A DNA stretch of 64,000 bases, from NCBI GenBank assembly GCA_951812285.1, contig OX638292.1, positions 1,652,551 through 1,716,550 on the forward strand, given 5' to 3'. This document shows positions 3,001 to 42,343 of the stretch, piece after piece; position 1 is the stretch's first letter; each line of letters begins with the position of its first letter. The notes beneath the pieces were generated by a model that made no database searches, had not been told where the DNA came from, and saw only the letters and a program-made list of their open reading frames with translations. Position numbers and translations under genes: made by a program. The DNA comes from an uncultured Dehalococcoidia bacterium (GTDB lineage: Bacteria; Chloroflexota; Dehalococcoidia; Lucifugimonadales; UBA1127).

Positions 3001-6000
3001 GGCGAATCGGTCAAACTCGGCTTCGACACCCTGCCAGCCGGTGTCAGCAAAGGCACGACAGACGAGACGACCGTGTCGATCACCGACGATGACGTGCCCA
3101 GCGTTACCGTCAGCTTCGAGCAGGCCTCCTACACCGTCGAAGAGGGCGGCAGAGTCACCGTTAAGGTCGTCCTCGACGCCGACCCGGAGCGGACGGTCAC
3201 TGTTCCTATCACGAAGTCCAACCAGGGAGGAGCATCCAACTCCGACTACTCGGGCGTACCGGCCAATGTCGTCTTCAACAGCGGCGACATGGAGAAGACG
3301 TTCGCCTTCAGCGCCACGCAGGACACGGTGGATGACGACGGCGAGGGTGTGAGACTCACCTTTGGAACGCTTCCCGAAAGGGTGACTTCCGCGGGCCCCT
3401 CGCAGGCAGTGGTTTCGATAACGGACGACGACGTGCCCAGCGTCACCGTCAGCTTCGAGCAGGCCTCCTACACTGTCGCAGAGGGCGGCAGCGTCACCGT
3501 TAAGGTCGTCCTCGACGCCGACCCGGAACAGACGGTCACTATACCTCTGACTAAGGCCAATCAGGACGGCGCCAGCGGCTCCGACTACTCGGGCGTGCCG
3601 GCGAACGTCGTCTTCAACAGCGGCGACACGGAGAAGACGTTCTCCTTTGCGGCAACACAGGATACGGCGAACGACGATGGGGAGTCGGTGAAACTCGGCT
3701 TCGGCACTCTGCCTGCTGGTGTGAGTGCAGGCACGACCGACGAAGCGACCGTGTCGATCACCGACGATGACGTGCCCAGCGTCACCGTCCGCTTCGAGCA
3801 GGGGTCATACACCGTGGCGGAGGGCGGCAGCGTCACCGTTAAGGTCGTCCTCGACGCCGACCCGGAGCGGACGGTCACTATACCTCTGACCGAGACGAAC
3901 CAGGGAGGGGCATCCAACTCCGACTACTCAGGCGTACCGGCCAACGTCGTCTTCAACAGCGGCGACACCGAGAAGACCTTCTCCTTCAACGCCAGCCAGG
4001 ACACTGTGGACGACGACGGGGAAAGTGTGAGGCTTACCTTCGGAGGGCTTCCTGCAAGGGTGACTTCCACCGGCCCGTCCCAGGCGGTTGTTTCGATAAC
4101 GGACGACGACGTTCCTTCGGTCACCGTCAGCTTCGGGTCGGCGTCCTACACGGTGGCGGAGGGCAACTCCGTCACGGTGAAGGTGGTCCTGTCAGCAGAC
4201 CCGGAGCGGACGGTCACTGTTCCCATCACGAAGTCCAATGAGGGAGGGGCGACGAACTCCGACTACTCAGGCGTGCCGGCGAACCTTGTGTTCAACAGCG
4301 GCGACACGGAGGAGACGTTCTCCTTCGCGGCAACACAGGATACGGCGAACGACGACGGGGAGTCGGTGAAGCTGGGCTTCGGCAACCTGCCTACGGGAGT
4401 GAGTGCGGGTGCTACGAATGAATCGACCGTCTCGATAACCGATGACGACGTGCCGTCCGTGACTGTCAGCTTCGGGTCGGCGTCCTATACCGTTGCGGAG
4501 GGAAGCAGCGTCACGATGAAGGTGGTCCTCTCGGCAGTTCCGGAGCGGATGGTGACCATCCCGTTGCTCAAGGTCAACCAAGGAGGGGCTACCTCTTCCG
4601 ACTACTCTGGAGTGCCTGCCAACGTCGTCTTCAACGCGGGGGACACCGAGAAGACGCTTGACTTCGCCGCCACCCAGGACACTGATAACGACGACGGCGA
4701 GAGCGTGAGAATCAGCTTCGGGACCATGCCGGACCAAGTTTCGGCGGGGGCCAACAGCGGAACCACCGTCTCCATAACAGATGACGACGTGCCCAGCGTC
4801 ACCGCCAGCTTCGGGTCGGCGTCCTACACGGTGGCGGAGGGCAACTCCGTCACGGTGAAGGTGGTCCTGTCAGCAGACCCGGAGCAGACGGTGACTGTTC
4901 CTATCACGAAGTCCAATGAGGGAGGGGCCACGAACTCCGACTACTCCGGGGTGCCTGCCAATGTAGTCTTCAACAGCGGTGACACGGAGAAGACGTTCTC
5001 CTTCGCGGCAGCGGACGACACGGTTGATGACGATGGGGAGTCGGTGAAGCTGGGCTTCGGCAACCTGCCTACGGGAGTGTCGGCCGGCGGCACGGACGAG
5101 GCGACGGTGTCTATCACGGACGACGATGTGCCCAGCGTCACCGTCAGTTTCGGGTCGGCCTCCTACACCGTCGCAGAGGGCGGTAGCGTCACCGTCAAGG
5201 TCGTCCTCGACGCCGACCCGGAGCGGACGGTCACTATACCTCTGACCGAGACGAACCAGGGAGGGGCATCCAACTCCGACTACTCGGGCGTACCGGCGAA
5301 CGTCGTCTTCAACAGCGGCGACACGGAGAAGACGTTCGCCTTCGACGCCACCCAGGACACTGTGGACGACGACGGGGAAAGTGTGAGGCTTACCTTCGGA
5401 GGGCTTCCTGCAAGGGTGACTTCCACCGGCCCGTCCCAGGCGGTTGTTTCGATAACGGACGACGACGTTCCTTCGGTCACCGTCAGCTTCGAGCAGGCCT
5501 CCTACACCGTCGCAGAGGGCGGCAGCGTCACCGTTAAGGTCGTCCTCGACGCCGACCCTGAGCGGACGGTCACGATACCTCTGACTAAGGCCAATCAGGA
5601 CGGCGCCAGCGGCTCCGACTACTCAGGCGTACCGGCGAGCGTTGTGTTCAACAGCGGCGACACGGAGGAGACCTTCTCCTTTGCGGCAACACAGGATACG
5701 GCGAACGACGATGGGGAGTCGGTGAAACTCGGCTTCGGCACTCTGCCTGCTGGTGTGAGTGCAGGCACGACCGACGAAGCGACCGTGTCGATCACCGACG
5801 ATGACGTGCCCAGCGTCACCGTCAGCTTCGGGTCGGCGTCCTACACGGTGGCGGAGGGCGGCAGCGTCACCGTTAAGGTCGTCCTCGATGCCGACCCAGA
5901 GCGGACGGTCACTATACCTCTTACCAAGACGAACCAAGGAGGGGCATCCAACTCCGACTACTCAGGCGTACCGGCCAACGTCGTCTTCAACAGCGGCGAC

Positions 6001-9000
6001 ACAGAGAAGACCTTCTCCTTCAACGCCACCCAGGACACTGTGGACGACGACGGGGAAAGTGTGAGGCTTACCTTCGGAGGGCTTCCTGCAAGGGTGACTT
6101 CCACCAGCCCGTCCCAGGCGGTTGTTTCGATAACGGATGACGACGTGCCCAGCGTCACCGTCAGCTTCGGGTCGGCGTCCTACACGGTGGCGGAGGGCAA
6201 CTCCGTTACGGTGAAGGTGGTCCTGTCAGCAGACCCGGAGCGGACGGTCACTGTTCCTATCACGAAGTCCAATGAGGGAGGGGCGACGAACTCCGACTAC
6301 TCCGGAGTGCCCTCAAACGCCATCTTCAACAGCGGCGACACGGAGAAGACCTTCTCCTTCGCGGCCGCGTCCGACAGCGACAACGACGACGGAGAATCGG
6401 TGAAGCTGGGCTTCGGGAACCTGCCCACGGGCGTGAGCGCGGGTGCTACGAATGAATCGACCGTCTCGATAACCGATGACGACGTGCCGTCCGTGACTGT
6501 CAGCTTCGGGTCGGCGTCCTATACCGTCGCAGAGGGCGGCAGCGTCACCGTTAAGGTCGTCCTTGACGCCGACCCGGAGCGGACGGTCACTATACCACTT
6601 ACTGAGGCCAATCAGGACGGCGCCAGCGGCTCCGACTACTCCGGAGTGCCCGCAAACGTCATCTTCAACAGCGGCGACACAGAGAAGACGTTCGCCTTCA
6701 ACGCCACCCAGGACACTGTGGACGACGACGGGGAGTCGGTGAAGCTGGGCTTCGGGAACCTACCCACGGGCGTGAGTTCGGGTGCTACGGTTGAGGCGAC
6801 CGTGTCGATCACCGACGATGACGTGCCCAGCGTCACCGTCAGTTTCGGGTCGGCGTCCTACACGGTGGCGGAGGGCAACAGCGTCACGGTGAAGGTCGTC
6901 CTCGACGCAGACCCGGAGCGGACGGTCACTGTTCCTATCACCAAGTCCAACCAGGGAGGGGCATCCAACTCCGACTACTCAGGCGTACCGGCGAACGTCG
7001 TCTTCAACAGCGGCGACACGGAGAAGACCTTCTCCTTTGCGGCAGCGGACGACACGGTTGATGACGATGGGGAGTCGGTGAAGCTGGGATTCGGGAGCCT
7101 GCCTGCAAGAGTGTCGGCCGGCGGCACGGACGAGGCGACGGTGTCGATCACGGACACTGATGTCCCCGTCGTAACCGTCAGCTTCGCGTCGGCGACCTAC
7201 GACGTAATCGAAGGGGAAAGTGCCACCGTGGCCGTCACGCTGAGCGCTGACCCCGAGCGGACCGTCACCATTCCGCTTAGCAGGACGAACCAGGGCGGGG
7301 CCACCGACCCTGACTACTCCGGGGTTCCTTCCAGCGTCACCTTCAACTCGGGGGACACGCAGAAGACCTTTAACTTTAGCGCAACCGATGATAGCGATGA
7401 CGACGACGGAGAGTCCGTCGAGATCGGCTTCGGCAGCCTCCCGACGGCAGTGTCGCAGGGAGCCACCCCCAAGACGGTGGTAAGCATCGAAGACCATGAC
7501 GGCGGAGGCCCCGGTAGCAACAAGGAGATCCTTGTAGGCGGAGGGAGCGAGATTACCGTCAGCTTCGAGCGGGCAACTTACTCCGTGCGGGAGGGAAGCA
7601 CCACAACCATCAAGGTGATTCTGAGCGCAGACCCTCAGACTAGCTTCAGCATCCCGCTAACCACTACAAGTGGGACCGGGTTGACCTCCAGCGACTACTC
7701 GGGCGTGCCCACCAGCGTGGACTTCGTCTCCGGCGAAACGGAAAAGTCGTTCACTCTTACTGCTGTCCAGGATCAGGATGACGAAGCAAATGAGACCCTG
7801 ACCCTAGGGTTCGGAACGCTCCTGACAGGCTTGATCGACGGGGACAACACGCAGGCCGACGTCACCATAGTCGACTCCATCCGCGTGTCATTTGGATCCG
7901 CAAGCTACCAGGCCTACGAGGGTGGCTTGGGCGCCCAGGTTTTCGTCAAGCTGGACAGCCCGGCTCCGGTCGAGACGGTCATTCCAATCACCTCCACCGG
8001 GATGAACGGCGCCACCAGCGCCGACTGGACCGGCGTGCCCTCCTTCGTGACGTTCGGGCCCGGCGACACCCAGCAGACCTTCGTCCTCATGGCTTACGAC
8101 GACCTGGTGGAGGACGATGGCGAGAGCGTAGAGCTCGGGTTCGGCACGCTCCCGGCTGGAGTGGTCAAGGGATCCCGATCCGTCGCCACGGTAGAGCTGA
8201 TGAACATGGAGGTGCCGAGCTGCGAAACCGCCGTATGGTGCACCACCGTGGAGTTCGCAAACACGGCATCGAGGGATTGGGGCCGGATGGGCTTGGGACT
8301 GGGGTACCACACTACGCAGGAACCCTACCTTCGCTACGCGAGCCTGAGCGACAACCGATTCACCTTCCGGAACAAGGAATACCAGGTCTGGAGCATGTTC
8401 ACGTTCCCTGGGGTGCATCCCGATGTCGGTCCCGGTTCGCCCGGCAGTATCCCGGAATACTCGACGTTCTCAATGCACATTCTGGAGGTGGTGCAAGGCG
8501 AGCTCAAGCATAGGGTCAACGGGAATCACAAGCGAGACTGGACCCTGTACATCGACGGCATTGGCTTGCCGTTCACCGACGTGGTGTCCACGAACCGGTC
8601 CGGAACCTCCTTCGTCTGGCATCACCCGAAGTTGCAGGACCTCTATGCCGACTGGACAGACGGAGACACCTACGAAGTCATGATCGTCGAGGACCCGGTA
8701 AACGACCGGCCCGAGCCGCCGATGACTGTGCCTGTGGCGCCCAAGTACCTGAGGGTCATTCCCGGCGATGGCAGTTTAACCGCTATATGGAAGGAATCCA
8801 TGAACGACGGCAACTCAGACATCTCACACTACCGGCTTCAGTGGAAGCTCAGGACGGCGAGCTGGGGCAACCCGCATGCCGTCGAGGAGGCTATCGTTCA
8901 GCCTCCCAGCGGGAGTCTCACCCAGCTGTTCCACTTCATCTCAGGGCTTAGCAACTACACACTCTACGACGTACGCGCCATCGCGGTGAACGGGGTGGGT

Positions 9001-10692
9001 GACAGCGAGCCATCCGCCGAACACTTCGGCATGCCGCAGAAGAAATCGCTCGACATCACCGAAACCGAGGTGAATGGGAACCAGCTGACCATCACCTACG
9101 AGCGGGCGCTGGATGGCAATTCAATCCCGAACCCGGAGGCATTCCGGGTGTTGGTAAATGGCGGCCCCAGAGAGGTCACCGGCGTGTCCATATCCGGTAG
9201 GTCGGTGACGCTCACGCTGGAGGAGCCGGCCAAGCGGGCCATCAGGGCCTCCGATGTAGTGGAGTTCCGCTACGTGACGCCACCCATTGGATCGCCGGCG
9301 ATCAAGGACACCGCGGGGAATTACGCCTACTCCTGCTATTTCGGCGAGGGTCCCTCGGAGGCCAGAAACGAGACCGACCCAGGGCTGTTGGATCCCGTCA
9401 GCGCGGAGTTCACGATGATGCCGGCGTCCCATGGCGGCCCCGGAGGCGAAGTCGTATTCCAGATCGAGTTCAGCGAGCCAGTTCGGGTCGACATTGGGCC
9501 GAACTACGCCAACCTCCTCGAGGTGGAGGGCGGAGAGGTTACCAGCGCCTGGTGGCTCGATGGAGATACGACCATGTGGAAGATCGTGCTGGAGCCGGCG
9601 TCCAACGACGACGTCAGGATTACACTTCCCGCAGGCCGGGCGTGCGGCGATCAGGGCGCTCCCTGCGGCAGCGGAGCGCGGCGTCTCAGCAACCAGCCCG
9701 AACACACCATTCCTGGTCCGAGCTCGCAGAACCAGAGGTCCAACAGCCCGGCTTCGGGCGGTCCGGCTATTGGAGGCTCTCCGCAGACTGGACAGACGCT
9801 CGCTGCGACCACGTCAGGCATCCAGGACATGGACGGCATGTCGGGCGCCGTCTTCAGCTACCAGTGGGTCCGCCACGAGCTGGGTACCGCAACCGACGCT
9901 GAAATCACTGGGGCAACAGGGCAGACCTACACCGTGTCCGCCCAGGACGAGGGCAAGGCCCTCAAGGTGAGGGTCACTTTCACCGATGATGCGGGCAACG
10001 AGGAGTCGCTTACGAGCTTCGCGGTAATCATTGCTCCGGCTCAAACCCGTGACGTCAAGCTGGTCAATACTGCTGCGACTGGTGCCCCCGGCATAGAGGG
10101 CACGCCGGAAGTTGGGCAGTCCCTGAAGGCCACCACGTCGGGAATTTCGGACGACGACGGCATCTCCAGTGCGGTCTTCGTCTACCAGTGGCTGGCGGGC
10201 AGCGTGGCGATCGATGGCGCCACGGCACTCACCTACGTGGTGGTTCCAGGCGACGTCGGCAAGCAGATCCGAGTGAAGGTCGCTTTCACAGACGATGCGG
10301 GCAACGAGGAGTCGCTGACCAGCGAGGCGACCGACCCGGTAGCAGCGGCTCTTCCTCCGCTTACCGTCAGCCTCGAGAACTCCCCCGCAAGCCACAACGG
10401 CACGGACGCCTTCACGTTCGAAATCCGATTCAGCGAGCACTTCAATTTGAGTTTTGAGACCCTACGTGACCATGCCTTCACGGTGGAGGGGGGCACGGTG
10501 ACGAGGGCCAAGCGGCAGGAGCGAGGCAGCAACATAGGCTGGACGATTACCGTCGAGCCGGATTCCAGCGGCGCCGTGACCGTCGTACTGCCCGCCACCA
10601 CAGACTGCGCGGACGTGGGAGCCATCTGCACGGCAGACGGCAGAATGCTCACGGAAGGGTTCGAGTTCACTGTCTCCGGTCCGGGTGAGTAA
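1..10692 (+). CDS. Giant Calx-beta repeat surface protein (5' end outside window)
   Basis: The reading frame is open from base 1, so the gene starts upstream; at least 3,563 residues are visible, ending at TAA 10690-10692. About three units of 111 residues come first (motif DDDTAGVTISETSLD). Then come 19 units of 113 residues (motif VSF-[EQ/GS]-ASYTVAEG ... SGVPA ... DTEKTFSF ... VSITDDDVP) and two diverged units (to about 8,210). These look like Calx-beta domains, acidic calcium-binding beta sandwiches of secreted adhesins. After a Cys-containing unassigned region (8,215-8,700) come a fibronectin III-like domain (8,720-9,030), a SwmB-like domain (9,037-9,375), an Ig-like region and two similar Ig-like domains (GxPxxGQxLxATTSGI) near 9,760 and 10,090. 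The likely role is a cell-surface or secreted adhesin; no anchor is seen at the C-terminus. No function beyond structure can be read. Confidence 0.9.
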   Translation: MPAGVTEGSMDETIVVIGDDDTAGVTISETSLDIEEGDSDTYTVVLDSEPVGDVTVTIDGVAGTEASLDKTTLTFKSGNWNTARTVTVTAEQDDDAVDEEEVTITHTVTSTDDPDYDGIAAGSVAVTVTDDDTAGVTISETSLDFNEGESDTYTVVLDTEPVGDVTVTIGGVTGTDVTLNNTTLTFTTGNWNTALTVTVTAVQDDDAVDEEEVTITHTVTSADDADYDGVSAGSVAVTVTDDDTAGVTISETSLDIIEGESDTYTVVLDTEPVGDVTVTIGGVTGTEVTLNNTTLTFTTGNWNTAQTVTVTAGQDGDGVDEEEVTITHTVTSADDTDYDGIAAGSVVVAVTDDDDVRVRVSYGSASYTVAEGDSVTVKVVLDADPERTVEVPITVTPLDGASAADFSGVPATVVFNAGDTEKTFSFSATQDTVDDDGEGVRLTFGTLPERVTSTGPSQAVVSITDDDVPNVTVSFEQASYTIAEGGSVTVKVVLDADPERTVTVPITKSNQDGASNSDYSGVPASVVFSPGDTEVTFDFDATDDVANDDGESVKLGFGNLPSGVSGGTTRETVVSITDDDVPSVNVSFGSASYTVAEGNSVTVKVVLSADPERTVTVPLTTTNQGGATSADYSGVPANVVFNTGDTEKTFSFSAADDTVDDDDESVKLGLGNLPTGVSAGTTDETTVSITDDDVPSVTVSFEQASYTVAEGNSVTVKVILSADPKRMVTIPLLRVNQGGASSGDYSGVPASVVFSAGDTEVTFDFAATDDAANDDGESVRVSFGTMPDQVSAGANSGTTVSITDDDVPEVTVSFEQASYIVAEGSSIAVKMKLDVDPERTLTIPLTKVDQGGASASDYSVPNSVVFNTGDTEKTISFTAADDSLDDDGESVKLGFGNLPTDVSAGTTDETTVSITDDDVPSVTVSFEQASYTVAEGGSVTVKVVLDADPERTVTVPITKSNQDGASNSDYSGVPANVVFNSGDTEKTFSFAAASDSNNDDGESVKLGFDTLPAGVSKGTTDETTVSITDDDVPSVTVSFEQASYTVEEGGRVTVKVVLDADPERTVTVPITKSNQGGASNSDYSGVPANVVFNSGDMEKTFAFSATQDTVDDDGEGVRLTFGTLPERVTSAGPSQAVVSITDDDVPSVTVSFEQASYTVAEGGSVTVKVVLDADPEQTVTIPLTKANQDGASGSDYSGVPANVVFNSGDTEKTFSFAATQDTANDDGESVKLGFGTLPAGVSAGTTDEATVSITDDDVPSVTVRFEQGSYTVAEGGSVTVKVVLDADPERTVTIPLTETNQGGASNSDYSGVPANVVFNSGDTEKTFSFNASQDTVDDDGESVRLTFGGLPARVTSTGPSQAVVSITDDDVPSVTVSFGSASYTVAEGNSVTVKVVLSADPERTVTVPITKSNEGGATNSDYSGVPANLVFNSGDTEETFSFAATQDTANDDGESVKLGFGNLPTGVSAGATNESTVSITDDDVPSVTVSFGSASYTVAEGSSVTMKVVLSAVPERMVTIPLLKVNQGGATSSDYSGVPANVVFNAGDTEKTLDFAATQDTDNDDGESVRISFGTMPDQVSAGANSGTTVSITDDDVPSVTASFGSASYTVAEGNSVTVKVVLSADPEQTVTVPITKSNEGGATNSDYSGVPANVVFNSGDTEKTFSFAAADDTVDDDGESVKLGFGNLPTGVSAGGTDEATVSITDDDVPSVTVSFGSASYTVAEGGSVTVKVVLDADPERTVTIPLTETNQGGASNSDYSGVPANVVFNSGDTEKTFAFDATQDTVDDDGESVRLTFGGLPARVTSTGPSQAVVSITDDDVPSVTVSFEQASYTVAEGGSVTVKVVLDADPERTVTIPLTKANQDGASGSDYSGVPASVVFNSGDTEETFSFAATQDTANDDGESVKLGFGTLPAGVSAGTTDEATVSITDDDVPSVTVSFGSASYTVAEGGSVTVKVVLDADPERTVTIPLTKTNQGGASNSDYSGVPANVVFNSGDTEKTFSFNATQDTVDDDGESVRLTFGGLPARVTSTSPSQAVVSITDDDVPSVTVSFGSASYTVAEGNSVTVKVVLSADPERTVTVPITKSNEGGATNSDYSGVPSNAIFNSGDTEKTFSFAAASDSDNDDGESVKLGFGNLPTGVSAGATNESTVSITDDDVPSVTVSFGSASYTVAEGGSVTVKVVLDADPERTVTIPLTEANQDGASGSDYSGVPANVIFNSGDTEKTFAFNATQDTVDDDGESVKLGFGNLPTGVSSGATVEATVSITDDDVPSVTVSFGSASYTVAEGNSVTVKVVLDADPERTVTVPITKSNQGGASNSDYSGVPANVVFNSGDTEKTFSFAAADDTVDDDGESVKLGFGSLPARVSAGGTDEATVSITDTDVPVVTVSFASATYDVIEGESATVAVTLSADPERTVTIPLSRTNQGGATDPDYSGVPSSVTFNSGDTQKTFNFSATDDSDDDDGESVEIGFGSLPTAVSQGATPKTVVSIEDHDGGGPGSNKEILVGGGSEITVSFERATYSVREGSTTTIKVILSADPQTSFSIPLTTTSGTGLTSSDYSGVPTSVDFVSGETEKSFTLTAVQDQDDEANETLTLGFGTLLTGLIDGDNTQADVTIVDSIRVSFGSASYQAYEGGLGAQVFVKLDSPAPVETVIPITSTGMNGATSADWTGVPSFVTFGPGDTQQTFVLMAYDDLVEDDGESVELGFGTLPAGVVKGSRSVATVELMNMEVPSCETAVWCTTVEFANTASRDWGRMGLGLGYHTTQEPYLRYASLSDNRFTFRNKEYQVWSMFTFPGVHPDVGPGSPGSIPEYSTFSMHILEVVQGELKHRVNGNHKRDWTLYIDGIGLPFTDVVSTNRSGTSFVWHHPKLQDLYADWTDGDTYEVMIVEDPVNDRPEPPMTVPVAPKYLRVIPGDGSLTAIWKESMNDGNSDISHYRLQWKLRTASWGNPHAVEEAIVQPPSGSLTQLFHFISGLSNYTLYDVRAIAVNGVGDSEPSAEHFGMPQKKSLDITETEVNGNQLTITYERALDGNSIPNPEAFRVLVNGGPREVTGVSISGRSVTLTLEEPAKRAIRASDVVEFRYVTPPIGSPAIKDTAGNYAYSCYFGEGPSEARNETDPGLLDPVSAEFTMMPASHGGPGGEVVFQIEFSEPVRVDIGPNYANLLEVEGGEVTSAWWLDGDTTMWKIVLEPASNDDVRITLPAGRACGDQGAPCGSGARRLSNQPEHTIPGPSSQNQRSNSPASGGPAIGGSPQTGQTLAATTSGIQDMDGMSGAVFSYQWVRHELGTATDAEITGATGQTYTVSAQDEGKALKVRVTFTDDAGNEESLTSFAVIIAPAQTRDVKLVNTAATGAPGIEGTPEVGQSLKATTSGISDDDGISSAVFVYQWLAGSVAIDGATALTYVVVPGDVGKQIRVKVAFTDDAGNEESLTSEATDPVAAALPPLTVSLENSPASHNGTDAFTFEIRFSEHFNLSFETLRDHAFTVEGGTVTRAKRQERGSNIGWTITVEPDSSGAVTVVLPATTDCADVGAICTADGRMLTEGFEFTVSGPGE
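61..1068 (+). repeat. Three 111-aa (333 bp) Calx-beta-like coding repeats
   Basis: Successive units begin with DDDTAGVTISETSLD and recur every 333 bp. They share long identical stretches, for example the WNTA...TVTVTA and EEEVTITHTVTS segments. They differ in length and motif from the 113-residue array that follows, so two repeat families are fused in one protein. Confidence 0.85.
1069..7490 (+). repeat. Tandem array of 19 coding repeats, 113 aa (339 bp) each
   Basis: The SGVPA motif recurs with exact 339-bp spacing; a single unit near 2,571 is 336 bp because the Gly codon of SGVP is missing. Two strand-A variants (SFEQASYTV and SFGSASYTV) and two C-terminal variants (GTTDETTVSIT and GPSQAVVSIT) are mixed in different orders. 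Several units are nearly identical at DNA level, for example around 3,890-4,120, 5,250-5,480 and 5,930-6,140. This pattern fits repeated unequal exchange between units. Confidence 0.9.
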
Positions 10693-17391: not shown

Positions 17392-18651
17392 CTAGTCCTG
17401 CGGGGCGAAGCGCGCCTGCAGGTGCTCGACGTGGTGTCGCTCCTCGGTGCATTCGGCCACGGAGAGCTCGACCTGGATTGTGGCGTGGTTGAGGCCGTGG
17501 CTGTACACGATCTTCCGGAGCTGCTTCAGGATGTCCTCCTGCCGGCCGGCCTGGGTGGGGCTCACGAAGACGTGGGCCGTGAAGGCGTCGTAGCCGGAGG
17601 TGATGGTCCAGGCATGGACATCGTGGACGAGAGTGACGCCTTCGACGTCCTCCATCTCGCTGCAGATGTTGTAGATGTCCACGGTATCCGGCGTACCCTC
17701 CAACAGCACCTTGAAGACGCGCATGAAGAGGCCCCAGGAGACCTTGAGGATGAGCAGGCCGATGAGGACGCTCATGATGGGATCGGCGATGTACCACTCG
17801 AAGGTGAGGATGAGGATGCCGGAAATGATGACGCCGACGGAGCCCATGAGGTCGGCGAGCACGTGCTGGAATGCGCCCTCGACGTTGAGGCTCTCGCCCG
17901 CGGCCCGGTGCAGCACCCATGCGGCGGCGATGTTGATGATCAGACCGACGACGCCGACGCTGAACATCAACGGGCCCTCGACCTCCGGGGTGTCGAAGAA
18001 GCGGTGATAGGCCTCGAAGAAGATCCAGCCGGCAATGAGCCAGAGGCTGACGGTATTGGCCAGCGCGGCGAGGACCTCTGTGCGGTAGAAGCCGAAGGTT
18101 GACCCGGCGGCTGCCGGCCGGTTGGCGATCCACATGGCGAAGAGGGCCAGGGCGATCGAGGCGGCGTCGGTGAGCATGTGCGCGGCGTCGGCGAGAAGGG
18201 CGAGGCTGCCGGAGAGGACGCCGCCGACGACCTCGACGAACATGAAGCCACCGATGAGGAAAAGGGCGATTATCAGGCTCTTCTTGCTGGCGCCTCGCAG
18301 GTCATGGGCGTGGTCATGGCCGCCGTGGCCATGGTCGTGGCCCGCGTGATCGTCATGGTCGTGGTCATGCTCATCATGGGCATGGTCGTGGCCTTCATGG
18401 TCATGGGCGTGGTCGTGGCCCTCGTGCTCATGGTCGTGGGCGTGGTCATGCTCGTCGTGGGCGTGATCGTGGCCCTCGTGGTCGTGGGCGTGGTCATGCT
18501 CGTCGTGGGCATGGTCGTGGCCTTCGTGGTCATGGGCGTGGTCATGCTCGTCGTGGGCGTGGTCGTGGCCCTCGTGGTCGTGGGCGTGGTCATGCTCGTG
18601 GTCGTGGCCTTCGTGGTCATGATCGTGATCGTGCCGGTGCTCAGTGGTCAC
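17392..18651 (-). CDS. Cation diffusion facilitator (zinc/divalent metal exporter) with very His-rich N-terminus
   Basis: The protein has 419 residues from GTG 18651, which follows a ribosome site (GGAAGGGAG); an in-frame ATG at 18693 lacks one. Residues 1 to about 117 are a low-complexity HDHxHDHEGHDHAH tract. Six membrane segments follow, with the CDF metal site HxxxD in the second (ADAAHMLTDA) and a second HxxxD (QHVLADLMG) in the fifth. A C-terminal cytoplasmic domain (VEGVTLVHDVHAWT) ends the protein. CDF proteins exchange cytoplasmic Zn2+ or other divalent cations for protons. The upstream gene for a His/Cys-rich peptide points to a metal-handling operon. The His tract is far longer than usual for this family. 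Confidence 0.93.
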   Translation of the reverse strand: MTTEHRHDHDHDHEGHDHEHDHAHDHEGHDHAHDEHDHAHDHEGHDHAHDEHDHAHDHEGHDHAHDEHDHAHDHEHEGHDHAHDHEGHDHAHDEHDHDHDDHAGHDHGHGGHDHAHDLRGASKKSLIIALFLIGGFMFVEVVGGVLSGSLALLADAAHMLTDAASIALALFAMWIANRPAAAGSTFGFYRTEVLAALANTVSLWLIAGWIFFEAYHRFFDTPEVEGPLMFSVGVVGLIINIAAAWVLHRAAGESLNVEGAFQHVLADLMGSVGVIISGILILTFEWYIADPIMSVLIGLLILKVSWGLFMRVFKVLLEGTPDTVDIYNICSEMEDVEGVTLVHDVHAWTITSGYDAFTAHVFVSPTQAGRQEDILKQLRKIVYSHGLNHATIQVELSVAECTEERHHVEHLQARFAPQD

Positions 18652-18760
18652 GACGGCTCCCTTCCGTGCAATAGCGGATGTCCGGCAGGGCATCCCCTAG
18701 CCGGACATCCGACTTGCGTTTCGATCGGGTTACCTATAGCGCCCTTTCGGGACCGACACG

Positions 18761-19018
18761 CTACGCGGCGGCGTGTGCGACGTGGTGGGGGTCGTCCTCG
18801 GCGGCGCAGTGCTCGCCACCGTGCTCGTGGCAGTGGATGTGGCCGTGCTCGTCCATGTCCTCGGGGCCCGTGACGGCCTGGCAGGCCGCGTCACCGTGGG
18901 TGTGGCAGTGGCCGGCGCCGTGCTCGTGGCAGTGCACGCCGTCATGGGCGTGGCAATGCTCGCCAGCATGCTCGTGACAGTGGTCGTCGTGCTCGTGGCT
19001 GTGGTCGTGGGTGGTCAT
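18761..19018 (-). CDS. Small His/Cys-rich metal-binding protein
   Basis: The protein has 85 residues and starts at ATG 19018 after a strong AAGGAGG site. It consists almost wholly of histidine, cysteine and acidic residues, with repeated HCHEH or HCHAH blocks. There is no signal peptide or membrane segment, so it probably acts in the cytoplasm as a metal buffer or chaperone; this is inferred from composition. It precedes the CDF exporter by 109 bp on the same strand. I know no named family. A low-complexity artefact is unlikely because of the good ribosome site and the clear stop. Confidence 0.75.
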   Translation of the reverse strand: MTTHDHSHEHDDHCHEHAGEHCHAHDGVHCHEHGAGHCHTHGDAACQAVTGPEDMDEHGHIHCHEHGGEHCAAEDDPHHVAHAAA

Positions 19019-19092
19019 GCTTTCCTCCTTGCGGTCTTACTCAGTTCAAGCGCGTCTGAGATATGTGAAACGTACCCAACTGAGACTAACCT

Positions 19093-19098
19093 TGTCAA
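19093..19098 (-). promoter_or_regulatory. Candidate -35 box (TTGACA) of the metal operon
   Basis: A perfect TTGACA on the minus strand lies about 75 nt before the start of the His/Cys-rich gene. The matching -10 region is poor, so activation by a metal regulator is possible but not shown. Confidence 0.35.
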
Positions 19099-19391
19099 CC
19101 CGCTACGAGTGAATGATACAAGGTCTACTGATGCCCATCCAACCACATCAAAAGCCGGTATTTCAACCCCCCCTCTTCCAAGGGGTTTCCGCAGCATTCA
19201 TCCTCTTCAGCGACATTGCGGGGCGCCCAGGACAATGTCCCGCGCCCACTGATACGAATTCTCAATCCACAGAGGCCAAGGGTCAGAAAACTCATGATTG
19301 AGGGGCCTCGGAAGGCGGCGAAACGAGGGGATGGTGGCGAATTTTCGGTCTGCTGCCCCCTCCGAATGCTCAACTCAGGCCGGGGTTGCCC
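19099..19391. other. Intergenic stretch without recognised feature
   Basis: The spacer between the divergent metal operon and the two-UGA gene contains no convincing ORF, repeat or RNA. It is somewhat lower in GC than its surroundings. Confidence 0.5.
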
Positions 19392-19397
19392 TATAAT
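19392..19397 (+). promoter_or_regulatory. -10 box TATAAT of the two-UGA thioredoxin-fold gene
   Basis: A perfect TATAAT lies 30 nt before ATG 19427; the -35 region is not evident. Confidence 0.5.
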
Positions 19398-19426
19398 AAG
19401 GATAGCTTGTGTCGACGGAGGTGACG

Positions 19427-20821
19427 ATGAAGCGAAGTTGGATCTGGGCCATGGGCACGGGACGGTGGTCCGCGCTCCTTGCGCTGGCGGCGGCCCTCGG
19501 GCTGCTGGCGGCTGTGGCGTGCGGCGGCGAGTCGGACGACGAGGCCGAGCCGGACAGCGGCGCGTCGACGACCGAGACGACCACCGGCAGCGACACGATG
19601 ACGGCGACGACTGACGCCGCGCCGGAGCCGAGCACGCCCATCGGGCACGAGGTCGGCATGCTGGCGCCGGACTTCACGGTGGAGACGATCGCGGGCGAGA
19701 CCTTCACCCTGTCGGAAGTGACGGGAGCCGGTTCGCCGGTGCTCCTCTACTTCTTCACGACTTGGTGACCGACATGCAATGCCGAGTTTCGGCATCTGCG
19801 GTCAATCTACCCCGACTACCAGGATGACGTCGTGCTGATCGGCGTGGGCATTGACCCGGGCGAGTCAGAGTCGAGGATCAGTGGGTGGGCAGAGAGGAAC
19901 AGTTTCTTCTGGCCCCTTGCTCCCGTAAGCGCGGACCCGGTCAGGGACTACAGAATCAGCCAACAGTCGGCGGCTGTGGGCATCGACGCCTTGGGCGAGA
20001 TTGTCCTGCGCAAGAACGGCGGGCTGCAGGGCGAAGACAAGTGGCGTGACTGGCTGGACACCCTCGGCGGGCCAAGGTCGTCGGCTGCGGTGACGGCTCC
20101 GTCTACGGACGCCTCGCTCTCAGGGACGTTGCCGACTTCGGGCGTCATCGAGGCACAGCCAACGATCGCTTTGGCGCCCACGGCAGCGCCCGCGCCGACT
20201 ACGGCGCCGGTGGCAGCACCGACCGCCGTTACCGCCCCGACGGATGCACCCGCGCCTGTCGTGGCTCCGGCGCCGACGATAACGCCGTCGCCGATTCCGA
20301 CCGCGACACCTCGGCCCGCGCCGACGGCCACGCCGCGGCCAACGGCCACTTCGGTGCCGCCCACGGCGACGCCCAACGTACCCGTCGGGCACAACGTGGG
20401 GCAGCGGGCGCCGGACTTCACCGTCACGGCGGTCAACGGGGAGACTGTCACGCTGTCGGAGGTGACGGCGTCCGGGAAGGCGGTGATCGTCTACTTCTTT
20501 GCGACTTGGTGACCGACCTGCAATGCGGAGGTTCCGCATCTGCAGAGCGTTTACTCAGCGAACAGCGATGACGTGTTGATGGTGGGCATCAGCTATGACG
20601 CACTATCGACGCAGTCCGAACTGACTAGGTACTCGAACAACCGGGGACTGAGCTTCCCGATCGCGGCGTACGAGCGGAGCATCGTCGCGGATGGCTATCG
20701 CATTACGGCTCAGTCGAGCGCGGTGGGCATCGACGCGAACGGGGTCATCCAACTGCGAAAGGGCTACGGATTGCAGAATCGCAACGAGTGGCAGGGATGG
20801 GTGGACACGCTGGTGGGCTAG
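19427..20821 (+). CDS. Two-domain thioredoxin-fold lipoprotein with two selenocysteines (UGA at 19766 and 20510)
   Basis: One frame runs from ATG 19427 (ribosome site GGAGGTG) to TAG 20819-20821 if two UGA codons are read as selenocysteine, giving 464 residues with Sec114 and Sec362. The N-terminus is a lipoprotein signal with Cys32 (AAVAC). Domain 1 (about 70-210) and domain 2 (about 320-464) are TlpA/ResA/AhpC-TSA-like: APDFTV ... LYFFTTW-U-PTCNAEF and APDFTV ... VYFFATW-U-PTCNAEV. Each UGA sits where the first Cys of WCxxC belongs. A Pro/Ala/Thr-rich linker joins them. The usual cis-Pro before strand 4 is missing (QQSAAVGID, AQSSAVGID). The likely role is extracytoplasmic thiol or peroxide redox chemistry. 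Hairpins follow both UGAs. Gene callers would give three fragments. Confidence 0.88.
19766..19804 (+). promoter_or_regulatory. Bacterial SECIS element 1
   Basis: Directly after UGA 19766-19768, a perfect 7-bp stem ATGCCGA/TCGGCAT (19779-19785, 19789-19795) closes a loop GUU. GCA/UGC pairs extend it across a bulged C. The loop G is the 18th nucleotide after the UGA. In addition, TGACCG at the codon is complementary to CGGTCA at 19799-19804. This fits the bSECIS pattern of a hairpin with an apical G about 16-25 nt downstream that recruits SelB. Confidence 0.8.
20510..20545 (+). promoter_or_regulatory. Bacterial SECIS element 2
   Basis: After UGA 20510-20512, stem ATGCGGA/TCCGCAT (20523-20529, 20533-20539) closes loop GGU. 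Outer pairs CTGCA/TGCAG (20518-20522, 20541-20545) flank a single bulged C. The loop G-G lies at nucleotides 18-19 after the UGA, close to the known E. coli fdhF geometry. Confidence 0.82.
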
Positions 20822-20857
20822 GGGCGAGCTTTCGCTCGCACGTAACCGCGATGACGA

Positions 20858-20886
20858 GGGGCTGCTGACGCGGCCCCTTTCTTGTT
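20858..20886 (+). terminator. Intrinsic terminator after the two-UGA gene
   Basis: GGGGC (20858-20862) and GCCCC (20873-20877, followed by TTTCTTGTT) form a short terminator. A second hairpin, GCGAGC-TTTC-GCTCGC, precedes it at 20824-20839. Confidence 0.6.
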
Positions 20887-20909
20887 GTCCATTCCTGTGG
20901 GGCTATTTC

Positions 20910-22283
20910 CTACGCACGTGCCAGCAACGGTCGCAGGTCACGGACGTTGGCTACGTCCTCTATGTGGAGGACGCGGTCTATGAGCTGCTCGGTGGCGTCA
21001 TCGCCGAGGACCGGGGCGATGAGGTCGCGAGCCTTCTCGCAGACGCGGGCCGTGTCGAGGGGGTTCTGGGCCGTGCCGGGCGCGTACTTGGTGTGGTGGG
21101 TGAGGGTGCGGCCGTCGGTGGTGGTGATCTCAATGATGGCCTGGCGCGGGGCCTCGGGCATGACGAGGCTGGGCTCGGGCCGGAGGGTTACGCGCTCTTT
21201 CATAGCGAGCACCTCGGCGTCGGCCATGCGCTCGTAGGAGTGGGTGGAGGTGAAGGAGACGCCGCCGTCGACGAGGGCGAGGGCGATGCAGTGCTGAATG
21301 TTGACGTCCGGCATGGAGCGGTTGTTGACGACGCCCGCGCCGTCGGTGGGGAGCCGGGCGAGGACGCTGGCGACGTCGGCGCCAGTGACGTTGTGCTCGC
21401 CGGTGATGGTGAAGAGGGCGTCGAGGGCGGACTGGATGGGGTAGCCGACGGCGTAGGGCTTGATGGCGGTCGAGGAGACGGAGAAGACCTCGCCGAGGCC
21501 GTCGGTGATGCGGCTGGGTTCCGGCGACTGGGAGAAGGCCAGCAGCAGGTTGTGCTCGCCGTCGAGGATGTTGGGGACGCCGGAGAAGCCCATCTGGACC
21601 ATGGTGGCGGCGGTGACGCCGTTGCGGGCACCCATGCCAGCGAAGTCAAAGGCCTTCTCGACGTGCTCCTCGTCGCCGACCCAGGCCCAGAGGCCGGAGG
21701 CCTGCTGCGAGGCGTAGGAGAGCACGTAGCGCATCTGCATGGGATCGAGGCGGGCGAGGGAGGCGGCGGCGCCCGTCGCGCCGAAGGTTGCGCCGAAGCC
21801 CTCTGCGCTGTGGTGCGCTGCGCGGAGCTTGTCGGCGTCGACGGCGAGGAGGATGCGGCAGGCGACGTCGTAGCCGAGAGCGACGGCGCGGAGGAGCTCG
21901 GCGCCGGACGCGCCCTCGCGCTCGGCCATGGCCCACGCGGCGGGGACGACGCTGCAGCCGGGGTGGGCCTTGGACGGCGGGTCGAAGTCGTCGGTCTCGT
22001 CGGCGTGGCCCATCATGCCGTTGGCGAGGGCCGCGTTGGCGGCGGAGGTGACGACGTCGGTGGTCATGACCATGGACTCAGGGACGCCGCCGAGGGTCCG
22101 GACGTACTTCTCGGCCATCTGGCCGGGCAGCAGCGTGCTGCCGGAGACGATGGCGGCGAGGCTGTCGAGGAGGCGGTGCTTGGCTTCGCGGTCGACGTCG
22201 GCTGGCAGGGCGCGGTCGCGGGCCGCGGCCATGTAGTCGGCGAGGATGCCGGTGGTGTTGCCGTTGGCGGGTGCCTGGGTCAT
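20910..22283 (-). CDS. MmgE/PrpD family protein
   Basis: The protein has 457 residues from ATG 22283, preceded by AAGGGAG. Family features include KHRLLDSLAAIVSGS near the N-terminus, the MMGHADETDDF segment and the helical C-terminal domain. The family includes 2-methylcitrate dehydratase (PrpD) and relatives acting on other small carboxylates. The genomic context holds no prpB or prpC, so 2-methylcitrate is not implied and the substrate is unknown. The protein is cytoplasmic and the gene is monocistronic, being converging with the two-UGA gene and separated from Era by a repeat cluster. Confidence 0.88.
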   Translation of the reverse strand: MTQAPANGNTTGILADYMAAARDRALPADVDREAKHRLLDSLAAIVSGSTLLPGQMAEKYVRTLGGVPESMVMTTDVVTSAANAALANGMMGHADETDDFDPPSKAHPGCSVVPAAWAMAEREGASGAELLRAVALGYDVACRILLAVDADKLRAAHHSAEGFGATFGATGAAASLARLDPMQMRYVLSYASQQASGLWAWVGDEEHVEKAFDFAGMGARNGVTAATMVQMGFSGVPNILDGEHNLLLAFSQSPEPSRITDGLGEVFSVSSTAIKPYAVGYPIQSALDALFTITGEHNVTGADVASVLARLPTDGAGVVNNRSMPDVNIQHCIALALVDGGVSFTSTHSYERMADAEVLAMKERVTLRPEPSLVMPEAPRQAIIEITTTDGRTLTHHTKYAPGTAQNPLDTARVCEKARDLIAPVLGDDATEQLIDRVLHIEDVANVRDLRPLLARA

Positions 22284-22349
22284 AGCGCTCCCTTCGGGTG
22301 AGTGATGCTGGGACGCGGGTAGTATACCCGGCTTGGCCTCGCGGGGTGC

Positions 22350-22389
22350 AAACGAAAGGGGCCGGCGCACAATCGTGCCGACCGGCCCC
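22350..22389 (-). terminator. Intrinsic terminator of a short minus-strand transcript
   Basis: On the minus strand GGGGCCGG (22389-22382) pairs with CCGGCCCC (22365-22358), with inner pairs GGCAC/GTGCG, followed by TTTCGTTT. It lies 65 bp upstream of the PrpD start and just after the small frame ending at 22401. Confidence 0.7.
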
Positions 22390-22400
22390 TCCCTCGCCGC

Positions 22401-22520
22401 CTATGTTGTTGTGTTGACGTGCCGTTGCCGGTGAGGCTTATCGCGGGCGCCCCCATCCCCTCCATGGGGGCGCCTGCGCCTCTCCACGCTTTTGGTGTTG
22501 GCGATCGCCTGCCCGAACAC
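22401..22520 (-). CDS. Candidate leaderless 39-aa basic peptide under a LexA-type box
   Basis: A GTG at 22520 lies about 12 nt after a good -10 box and opens a 39-codon frame (MFGQAIANTKSVERRRRPHG ... HVNTTT) ending in TAG 22401-22403. A terminator follows immediately. The peptide is strongly basic (RRRR and several His). The promoter, frame and terminator form a compact unit of about 175 nt. Alternatively the transcript is a noncoding RNA. I recognise no homologue. Confidence 0.35.
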   Translation of the reverse strand: MFGQAIANTKSVERRRRPHGGDGGARDKPHRQRHVNTTT

Positions 22521-22560
22521 TAGTTCTTACAAGATTAGAACATGCATTCCGGTCTGTCAA
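22515..22560 (-). promoter_or_regulatory. Promoter TTGACA-17-TAATCT with overlapping LexA-type operator
   Basis: On the minus strand, TTGACA (22560-22555) and TAATCT (22537-22532) are 17 bp apart. Across the predicted start point lies GAACACTAGTTC (22515-22526), a perfect GAAC-N4-GTTC palindrome. This is the operator type used by LexA of Gram-positive bacteria and reported for Chloroflexi-type LexA. The site would repress this promoter until DNA damage. Confidence 0.55.
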
Positions 22561-22621
22561 TGGGGGGGATTTTGGGGCAGGTTGGCCGGTGCGATATGTG
22601 AGGGGCGCGACGGGCCCCTCC

Positions 22622-22852
22622 CCTGGATCCCGGCATTCGCCGGGATGGAGGCGGGAGGGGTTGGGGGTGCGAGGAGGAGCGTTGGTGGGGGCGCCCCGCG
22701 CTGCCGCCCCTCTGGATTCCTGCCTTCGCAGGAATGACGAAGGAGGGCAGGAATGACGAAGGAGGGCAGGAATGACGCGGAGGGGGGCGGGAATGGCGGG
22801 GAGGGCGTGGGAGTGTAGGGGCTTGTCGGGGTTGCTGCCTTCGCAGGAACAA
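22622..22852. repeat. Intergenic palindromic repeat cluster 2
   Basis: One type A unit (22622-22651), one type B unit (22712-22739), two partial type B half units (GCAGGAATGACG, 22745-22780) and a diverged type B unit (22829-22852) fill the space downstream of Era. No gene is visible here. Confidence 0.8.
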
Positions 22853-22866
22853 CGGGGTGGGGGTGG

Positions 22867-23838
22867 CTAGTAGCCTACTTCTTCCAGGAAGGCGGGGTCG
22901 TCGCGCCATTCTGTCCAGACTTGGACCCAGACATCGAGGTAGATGGGGCGGTTGAAGAGGTCTTCCATCTGGAGGCGGGCGGCGGTGGCGACTTCTTTCA
23001 TGGCGGCGCCGCCTTTGCCGATGAGGATTCGGCGCTGGGAGGCGCGGTTGACGTAGATGACGACGCGAATGTAGTCCTTGGTGCGCTCCTCGCCGTCGGC
23101 CTCGAGGAACTCCTCTACCTCTACGGCGGTGTCGTAGGGGACCTCCTGGCCGAAGCGGCGGAAGAGCTGCTCGCGGACCATCTCTGAGGCGAGGAAGCGC
23201 TCGGAGCGGTCAGTGAGCTCGTCGGCGTCGTACTCGGCGGCGCGCTGGGGGAGGCGGTCGACGAGGAGCTTGAGGAGGAGGTCGGTGCCGTCGGCGTTGA
23301 GGGCGCTGATGGGCACGATCTCCATCGACGGGGCGATCTCGTGGTAGGCCTGGATGACGGGAAGCAGGTGGGGCTTGCTGACCCTGTCGACCTTGTTGAG
23401 GGCGAGGACGGCGGGGGTGCCCTCAGCGGCGAGGGCCTTGAGGAGGGACTTCTCGGTCTCGCCGGGCGGCCTGGGCTCGGCGACGAGGAGGGCGAGGTCG
23501 GCGGCGAGCATCGCCTCCTGGACGTGGCCGAGCATGCGGCGGTCGAGGGCGTCGCGGGTGCGGCGCATGTAGCCGGGGGTGTCCCAGAAGACGATCTGGT
23601 AGTCGTCGTGGGTGAGGATGCCGAGGAGCTGCTGGCGGGTGGTCTGCGGGCGCGGCGAGGTGATGGCCAGCTTCTCCTGCAGGAGGGTGTTCAGCAGCGT
23701 CGACTTGCCGGCGTTGGGACGGCCGAGGATGGTGACGAAGCCCATCCGGTGCGGCGCGGCCTTCACCCCGCGCCTCTTGCGCGCAGCGGCCTTAGCTGCA
23801 GGCTTTGCGGGCGTCCCGGCCGCTTTCGACGTTGACAT
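22867..23838 (-). CDS. era: GTPase Era
   Basis: The protein has 323 residues. A Lys/Ala-rich N-terminal extension of about 30 residues precedes the GTPase domain. G1 is GRPNAGKST, the switch region is SPRPQTTRQQ, G3 is DTPG and G4 is NKVD. The C-terminal KH RNA-binding domain contains RASQRRILIGKGG. Era binds the 3' end of 16S rRNA and helps 30S subunit assembly. A gene for a 72-residue DUF4177-like protein ends 21 bp upstream on the same strand, so the two are probably cotranscribed. The N-terminal extension is longer than in E. coli Era. Confidence 0.95.
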   Translation of the reverse strand: MSTSKAAGTPAKPAAKAAARKRRGVKAAPHRMGFVTILGRPNAGKSTLLNTLLQEKLAITSPRPQTTRQQLLGILTHDDYQIVFWDTPGYMRRTRDALDRRMLGHVQEAMLAADLALLVAEPRPPGETEKSLLKALAAEGTPAVLALNKVDRVSKPHLLPVIQAYHEIAPSMEIVPISALNADGTDLLLKLLVDRLPQRAAEYDADELTDRSERFLASEMVREQLFRRFGQEVPYDTAVEVEEFLEADGEERTKDYIRVVIYVNRASQRRILIGKGGAAMKEVATAARLQMEDLFNRPIYLDVWVQVWTEWRDDPAFLEEVGY

Positions 23839-41553: not shown

Positions 41554-41583
41554 AGTATAGGAGTCGGGCGCGCGGGGGGTCAA
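41554..41583 (-). promoter_or_regulatory. Promoter of the Gfo/Idh/MocA gene
   Basis: On the minus strand TTGACC (41583-41578), 18 bp and TATACT (41559-41554) precede the gene. Confidence 0.6.
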
Positions 41584-41601
41584 GGAATGGGCGTCGCTCG
41601 C

Positions 41602-41629
41602 TTGACACTGCATTGCGCGGGCTTATGCT
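41602..41629 (+). promoter_or_regulatory. Promoter of the deiodinase-like selenoprotein gene
   Basis: TTGACA (41602-41607), 16 bp and TATGCT (41624-41629) lie 46-73 nt before ATG 41675. Confidence 0.65.
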
Positions 41630-41674
41630 AGTCGCAAGCTGGGAGAGCGCCAAACAGCGTCGAGGAGGCGAGTT

Positions 41675-42343
41675 ATGTCAGAGTGGTTGGGGCGCGAGTA
41701 CAACTACGACATCTGGCGGCCGTCGCAGGCCGAGTTCCAACTGCTGAAGGAGATTCACCACGCGGGCGACGTCGCGCCGGACTTCACGCTGCCGCTGCTC
41801 GATGGCGGCGAATTGAGCCTGTCGGACCTGAAGGGCAAACCGGTCGTGATGGAGTTTGGCTCGATCACCTGACCGCCGTGCCAGGGGGAGTTCCCCCTCA
41901 TGGACCAGCTGGCCCGCGACTACGCGGACCGGGCGCACTTCCTCTTCGTCTACGTGCGGGAGGCGCACCCGGACGACTTCCCACAGTGGCCGGAGCACAA
42001 GAGCATCGAGCAAAAGTTCGAGCAGGCGCGGCTGATGCAGGAGAAGCACGGGACGCCGCGCACCATCGTCATCGACGACATCGAGGGCGGCGTGCACCGC
42101 GCGTGGGGCGGGATGCCGAACATGAGCTGGATCATCGACCACACGGGGCGGGTGTTCTTCAAGGCCGGGTGGACGGTGGAGGCGGACCTGCGCGCGGGGC
42201 TGGAGGACTACTTCGACCTGCGGGAGCGCATGCGCGAGGGCTCGACGGCGCGGTACTACAAGGAGATCATCACGGCGACGCCGCGGATGCGCGAGGGTGG
42301 CATGATGCGGCCGCAGCGCGAGCCCGCGGAGAGTGGCGGATAG
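41675..42343 (+). CDS. Deiodinase-like thioredoxin-fold selenoprotein (UGA at 41870)
   Basis: ATG 41675 follows GAGGAGG. One frame runs to TAG 42341-42343 if UGA 41870-41872 encodes Sec66, giving 222 residues. The sequence around it reads VVMEFGSIT-U-PPCQGEFP. This matches iodothyronine deiodinases (NFGSCTUPPF), and FLFVYVREAHPDD parallels their VVYIEEAHxSD segment. The peroxiredoxin-like start (DVAPDFTLPLLDGGELSLSD) and a later GMPNMSWIIDHTGRV with cis-Pro complete a thioredoxin fold. A Cys (UPPC) could resolve a selenenylsulfide, which vertebrate deiodinases lack. There is no signal peptide, so it is cytoplasmic. A true iodothyronine substrate is unlikely; reductive dehalogenation or peroxide reduction is possible. 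Confidence 0.88.
41870..41903 (+). promoter_or_regulatory. Bacterial SECIS element 3
   Basis: After UGA 41870-41872, AGGGGG (41883-41888) pairs with CCCCCT (41893-41898) around loop AGUU. CCA/UGG can add outer pairs. The loop G is again nucleotide 18 after the UGA. Confidence 0.78.

Follow-up and report, generated by a model that had tools for sequence, protein, structure and literature searches.

A predicted lipid-anchored selenoprotein with two selenocysteine thioredoxin-fold domains in a Dehalococcoidia bacterium

Introduction

In most prokaryotic selenoprotein families a single selenocysteine (Sec, U) is present (PMC13188914, section 7). Among the closest described systems in Table 1 of that 2026 catalogue, the Prx-like thiol:disulfide oxidoreductases (PF00578; motifs UxxC and UxxU) have 1 to 2 Sec, and the TlpA/thiol-disulfide isomerase-like selenoproteins (cd02966) carry UxxC and UGC motifs with one Sec. 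Fusion selenoproteins in the same table include HUGP/GUXX-star, methyltransferase/UXPK-star and arsenite methyltransferase/AhpD with 3 Sec. In this study, we analyzed a gene with two in-frame UGA codons in a 64,000-nucleotide stretch of contig OX638292.1 from an uncultured Dehalococcoidia bacterium; this whole stretch is called the window. The product is predicted to be a lipid-anchored, two-headed selenoenzyme for extracytoplasmic disulfide electron exchange, with both UGAs in W-U-P-T-C sites and a selenocysteine insertion sequence (SECIS) after each, a reading to which we assign a probability of about 0.72. An initial sequence-only reading of the locus had proposed an undescribed family. This stands for the tandem form, since tandem Sec thioredoxin domains are absent from Table 1 of the catalogue, and no such tandem bacterial selenoprotein appeared in the titles and abstract openings of the papers that our literature searches returned. 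It does not stand for the single-domain UxxC proteins of PF00578, which are already described.

Results

Two UGA codons in one lipoprotein gene

The gene is located in G000, the window's own genome (a single contig of 2.86 Mb, 94% complete), and has the following parts, in which pLDDT is the predicted local distance difference test score.

19427..20821, + strand: complete gene, coding for 464 residues if TGA is taken as Sec, and ending with TAG
19417..19421, + strand: GGAGG, ribosome-binding-site-like by sequence, 5 bases before the ATG
19427..19522, + strand: predicted lipoprotein signal, LLAAVAC with Cys32 (lipobox pattern; helix 12-30 in the model)
19634..20068, + strand: thioredoxin-fold domain 1, residues 70-214 (PF00578; full-length model, pLDDT mostly >90)
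19766..19768, + strand: UGA 1, predicted Sec114 with partner Cys117 (kept in G003 and G004; Cys homologues align)
19779..19795, + strand: SECIS-like hairpin 1 (7 bp, loop GUU, 17 nt after the UGA)
20069..20383, + strand: linker rich in Pro, Thr and Ala (residues 215-319), predicted to be disordered (pLDDT low for most of 215-320)
20384..20818, + strand: thioredoxin-fold domain 2, residues 320-464
20510..20512, + strand: UGA 2, predicted Sec362 with partner Cys365 (kept in G004)
20523..20539, + strand: SECIS-like hairpin 2 (loop GGU, 17 nt after the UGA)

In the recoded frame U is present at positions 114 and 362 only, both within TWUPTC. The earlier placement of two in-frame UGAs at the first Cys of W-C-x-x-C motifs, in a frame that ends with TAG, was thereby confirmed on the 464-residue sequence. 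A plain list of open reading frames (ORFs) cuts the locus into 19409-19768, which stops at UGA1, and 19832-20512, which stops at UGA2. PF00578 (AhpC-TSA) matches the protein in two stretches, the better of which (324-442) spans U362. Both domains are predicted to adopt a ResA-like thioredoxin fold and are joined by a linker of about 105 residues, and the lipobox pattern recurs in 70 of the 81 family frames.

Conservation and selection across both UGAs

G003, G004 and G005 are genomes of the same genus as G000, and G023 is a distant genome of the same order. A six-frame search of six genomes of the family recovered the whole protein in G004 (70% identity), with both UGAs in place, and its first 300 residues in G003 (79% identity), where the first UGA is present and the contig ends before domain 2. 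In the codon alignment TGA stands opposite TGA at 114 and at 362. The ratio of nonsynonymous to synonymous substitution rates (dN/dS; Nei-Gojobori, own script) between G000 and G004 was 0.245 after UGA1 and 0.399 after UGA2, and between G000 and G003 it was 0.184 after UGA1. Since dN/dS is below 1 after each UGA, the downstream sequence has been kept as protein. Together with the PF00578 match across U362, these data uphold the proposal that thioredoxin-fold homology continues beyond both UGAs. A chance origin of the two in-frame UGAs is excluded by conservation, dN/dS, the Pfam span and the folding of the hairpins.

SECIS hairpins

Both UGAs are followed by AUGCSGA-GKU-UCSGCAU, which forms 7 pairs and a 3-base loop with G in first position; one C-G pair of hairpin 1 is a G-C pair in hairpin 2 of the same gene. 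The 41-mers after UGA1 and UGA2 fold with -17.2 and -19.2 kcal/mol, values reached by 0/200 and 1/200 shuffled sequences, and the 51-mers including the UGA fold with -18.2 and -19.3 kcal/mol (3/200 and 7/200 shuffles). The bacterial SECIS (bSECIS) model, as given in PMC13188914, asks for a 3-9 nt loop with G within its first two positions, a spacing of 16-37 nt and a minimum free energy <= -7.5. Both window hairpins agree with it in loop (GUU and GGU), spacing (17 nt) and the energy of the 41-mers.

Covariation was assessed on 81 Sec sequences of the family, 78 of them distinct (alignment A1, from which L048 was left out). The covariation score was 0.323 versus 0.110 in shuffled alignments, and 0/500 shuffles reached it; shifting the hairpin alignment along the sequence gave only 0.045 to 0.089. 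Two-sided changes were found at 7/7 pairs, as in 5/500 shuffles. The pairs 17-27, 18-26 and 19-25 are the sole ones formed in 78/78 sequences, and in a wider set these three core pairs are formed in 91/93 Sec domains versus 2/39 Cys domains. Because most of the Cys domains are more distant, some of this gap reflects amino-acid difference; the nearest two Cys domains, L136 and L094, likewise lack the full core. The core with a loop starting with G and then G or U is present in 89/93 Sec domains versus 62/8115 coding positions of nine window ORFs, and GNGUU surrounds the loop in 80/93 domains. The hairpins that had been called SECIS-like from the letters of the window are thus borne out by model fit, covariation and a retained core, and the 81-sequence set represents a compact, covarying bacterial SECIS. 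A scan of 18800-23000 with Rfam gave three matches, all unrelated and below gathering scores.

Selenocysteine machinery of the genome

The genes selA (541 bits), selB and selD (380 bits) and a tRNA-Sec were all found in G000, over their cut-offs. The selD gene itself carries one in-frame TGA. The tRNA-Sec scored 72.9 bits with the Rfam tRNA-Sec model, and ARAGORN reads its anticodon as TCA. A search for the sel genes had been recommended along with the sequence-only reading, which named a lack of selB and tRNA-Sec, or unrelated residues at the UGA positions of homologues, as evidence that would speak against it; neither was observed. TGA as an ordinary sense codon was considered and rejected as not needed, Sec machinery and SECIS being present. 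Five window genes whose stops were inspected end with TAA or TAG, which is neutral on this question.

Another tRNA-like gene of this genome (L017, G000:C1:1882742-1882827) has the anticodon CUA and a long variable arm. It scored 50.9 bits, over the cut-off of the Rfam tRNA-Sec model, and was called tRNA-Pyl by ARAGORN. By our own reading it has 8/4 acceptor/T pairs, as in allo-tRNAs. The stop of the Sec gene, TAG, is the codon that matches this anticodon.

Family, Cys homologues and active site

Single-Sec relatives of the gene are common in the order. Matches at 1e-12 were found in 124 of 250 order genomes; most of the strongest contain at least one TGA, and many weaker ones contain none. From a class sample of 393 genomes, 55 match at 1e-22, and the listed matches to 6e-36 have one TGA each except the Cys form of G245; the weaker listed ones are free of TGA. 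Of 400 genomes sampled from the phylum, three match at 1e-30, namely G000 and two that lie outside the class, with one TGA per domain.

A set of 84 distinct domains (E <= 1e-15; L024 and L044 to L134) has U at the Sec site in 81 and C in 3, and the second Cys in 84/84. One of the three C domains, L048, is an ordinary WCGPC thioredoxin with IP at the cis-proline site. Elsewhere this site is occupied by Ser (66), Ala (16) or Gly (1), the only Pro being that of the outlier L048. Three residues before U, the set has A 66, T 12, S 5 and E 1, so that the Thr of the peroxiredoxin motif PxxxTxxU/C is not kept. A profile search of 5.8 billion proteins returned 1767 at 1e-10, of which the best 120 were listed. 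Among the first 36 listed (P0028 to P0063), the U site is occupied by C in 36/36, the second Cys is present in 36/36 and WCPxC in 33/36, with Ser (28) or Ala (8) at the cis-proline site; the Cys homologues expected to align at the Sec site therefore exist.

Compared with ResA, the window protein has Q-S opposite L-P at the cis-proline site. The description of the protein as TlpA-like hence agrees with the fold, but not with the Ser or Ala in place of cis-proline. Membership in ResA was rejected (NF002854, 121.2 bits against a cut-off of 170 bits; cis-proline absent), as was membership in the peroxiredoxins, since PxxxTxxU/C was not recovered, judged on its Thr alone. None of the best 25 of 35 matched NCBIfam families scored over its cut-off.

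Doubled forms and their origin

Among the genomes searched, both UGAs stand in one frame in G000, G004 and G023, and these represent two separate lineages. The G023 gene (L069) has 38% identity to the window gene and two WUPTC motifs. In the domain tree, from which L048 was left out, domains 1 and 2 of the window's genus are neighbours, although the support of 93/63 is not strong. A single-domain gene of G005 adjoins them (100/98), and the two domains of G023 pair together elsewhere (100/99). The internal duplication of the Sec domain proposed at the outset is thus supported. A single clade of all double-Sec domains was rejected by the approximately unbiased (AU) test (p = 1.6e-5), a test that gene conversion could mislead on double domains. 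The G005 gene is flanked by Rieske/LigXa_C on one side and MmgE/PrpD on the other, gene types as in the window. In 17 genomes two or three separate Sec genes lie side by side (loci partly fetched for that reason), which makes fusion of tandem genes a likely path. Tandem duplication followed by fusion is the probable origin of the doubled form, and it probably occurred more than once.

The double gene is therefore not a one-off, and protein databases suggest that there are more. The gene is nearly invisible there, because ORF callers split it at the UGAs; among 62 database proteins, a single one shows a source name, 'hypothetical protein ... partial'. Sixty of the 62 were profiled (P0012 and P0014 were left out), and 41 of them start within the second half of one domain and stop one residue before the U site of a following domain. 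Thirty of these fragments resemble the window gene, including P0152, which is the window's own piece; P0200, also among the 41, has a first half of another type. Seven fragments (P0078, P0084, P0091, P0092, P0096, P0148 and P0174) form one candidate further lineage, and P0188, P0189 and P0192, with a stretch of PF05901 (Excalibur) in the linker, form another. Judged from where these proteins end, which would mark the UGA stops, the fragments suggest two further doubled lineages. A search of the order with P0091 at 1e-30 matched two of the 250 genomes, G023 and G162; the G162 match is a single-domain gene, so no third double gene came to light among the 250. The other 19 of the 60 comprise 10 that lose frame or contig in the linker, 6 N-terminal proteins ending at the U site, P0167 and two ordinary proteins. 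P0193 is an N-terminal piece ending with FFFATF, and its longest contig equals that of P0084 in length (26,678). P0167 is a tandem with Cys in domain 1 whose end coincides with the U site of domain 2; it is possibly a Cys/Sec hybrid.

Genomic neighbourhood

A cation diffusion facilitator (CDF) gene precedes the Sec gene:

17392..18693, - strand: CDF-type cation efflux gene, divergent, a neighbour kept in G003 and G004

A scan of 7 ORFs near the G023 gene and of 9 near that of G005 revealed no CDF gene. Between the exporter and the Sec gene lies a small His/Cys-rich ORF (18761-19018, - strand) that is possibly metal-binding. Further along the window, 41561-42343 (+ strand) is a second selenoprotein candidate, with a TGA at 41870-41872, a TUPPC motif and matches to Pfam T4_deiodinase and AhpC-TSA; similar one-TGA frames are present in the same genus, e.g., L062 of G004, also with TUPPC. 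ARAGORN called a tRNA-Cys at 21922-22014 (+ strand), inside the MmgE/PrpD gene of the opposite strand. The call is likely false, since the Rfam scan lists no tRNA there. The window also encodes a 3559-residue protein with 20 Calx-beta stretches (13-10692, + strand).

Discussion

How might such a protein work? SelB and tRNA-Sec would read both UGAs of one mRNA as Sec, and after lipidation of Cys32 the two heads would be held on the outer membrane face by a flexible linker. The selenolates of Sec114 and Sec362 might then attack a substrate disulfide (or a peroxide), the resolving Cys117 and Cys365 would close a selenenylsulfide, and some donor would reduce it. With two heads on one anchor, twice as many active sites would be available locally, and both reach and avidity would increase.

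Several observations weigh against this assignment. Ser or Ala stands where thioredoxin-fold oxidoreductases have their cis-proline, so the activity may differ from that of ResA. Among the sought electron donors, neither DsbD_TM/CcdA (PF02683; control matches in 10 of 14 genomes) nor VKOR (PF07884; control matches in 3 of 14) has a match in G000, and the neighbour ORFs scanned contain no partner gene common to both double lineages. The family sample was picked by likeness to the query, so that 81/84 is no census. Within the hairpins, 28, 24 and 19 of 78 sequences fail to form the respective outer pairs, and 51 of 78 fail to form pair 20-24. Potentially, the loss of cis-proline and the absence of the two sought donors indicate that Chloroflexota have an extracytoplasmic redox route that is as yet unstudied.

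The main rival is a double-Sec peroxidase, whose selenolates would act on hydrogen peroxide or lipid hydroperoxides at the outer membrane face, leaving a selenenic acid for the second Cys to resolve. The altered residue in place of the Thr of PxxxTxxU speaks against this function, which we consider unlikely. Metal handling is quite improbable. In this reading, a soft metal such as Cu, Zn or Hg would be held by the Sec/Cys pairs, which lack a cis-proline, and the neighbouring cation exporter would work alongside. Sco-type proteins bind soft metal, and Pfam SCO1-SenC scored 25.2 bits, above its cut-off (22.8), although none of the stretches passes on its own; the divergent CDF exporter stands beside the gene in G000, G003 and G004, with the His/Cys-rich ORF between them. 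However, the CDF gene is missing from the ORFs scanned in G023 and G005, and the fold and motif are of ResA type.

Two further alternatives concern the gene itself. It was considered that the UGAs are real stops in a decayed or fragmentary locus from which an N-terminal stub alone would be made. ORF lists do split such loci at UGAs, and database fragments begin after the site of UGA1 and end at that of UGA2, but conservation in two genomes and dN/dS below 1 on both sides already contradict this view, as do SECIS covariation, the Sec machinery and the Cys homologues; it is extremely improbable. As for ancestry, the doubled form might have one old origin, with gene conversion mimicking separate duplications. 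Tandem copies can convert each other, and both lineages occur in one order and have the same linker type. The AU test against one double clade argues otherwise, as does the single-domain G005 gene of the same genus, which branches beside the doubles and has similar flanking gene types. One old origin is therefore rather unlikely.

It is tempting to go beyond two-headed disulfide exchange and propose a recurrent class of surface-anchored, two-headed selenoenzymes in at least two Chloroflexota lineages, perhaps four lineages in all. Their heads would cooperate, one docking to a donor and the other to the substrate, in an extracytoplasmic redox pathway without DsbD/CcdA or VKOR. This extension is tentative and rather doubtful. 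If true, duplication of a Sec thioredoxin domain would have copied UGA and SECIS along with it, so that a single mRNA undergoes recoding twice. Any chain with two Sec domains has to get through recoding two times, and the natural one-head and two-head relatives, together with the Cys-first tandem P0167, make the cost and gain of the second Sec testable.

Comparison with known systems

ResA of Bacillus (4nmu, 1st9) has Cys, one domain and a cis-proline, whereas the window protein has Sec, two domains and Ser/Ala. ResA works with CcdA, a partner that was not found in G000. The cd02966 selenoproteins likewise have Sec in a TlpA-type domain, but with one Sec instead of two, as far as Table 1 of PMC13188914 reports them. 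The Prx-like selenoproteins of PF00578 listed there share with the window protein the Sec in place of the first Cys of CxxC and the AhpC/TSA thioredoxin fold. As the table reads, however, their two-Sec form is UxxU within one motif, in contrast to two whole UxxC domains behind one predicted lipobox. The fusion selenoproteins of the same table also have several Sec per chain; by their names they combine unlike domains, whereas the window gene repeats one and the same thioredoxin domain, with UGA and SECIS copied along.
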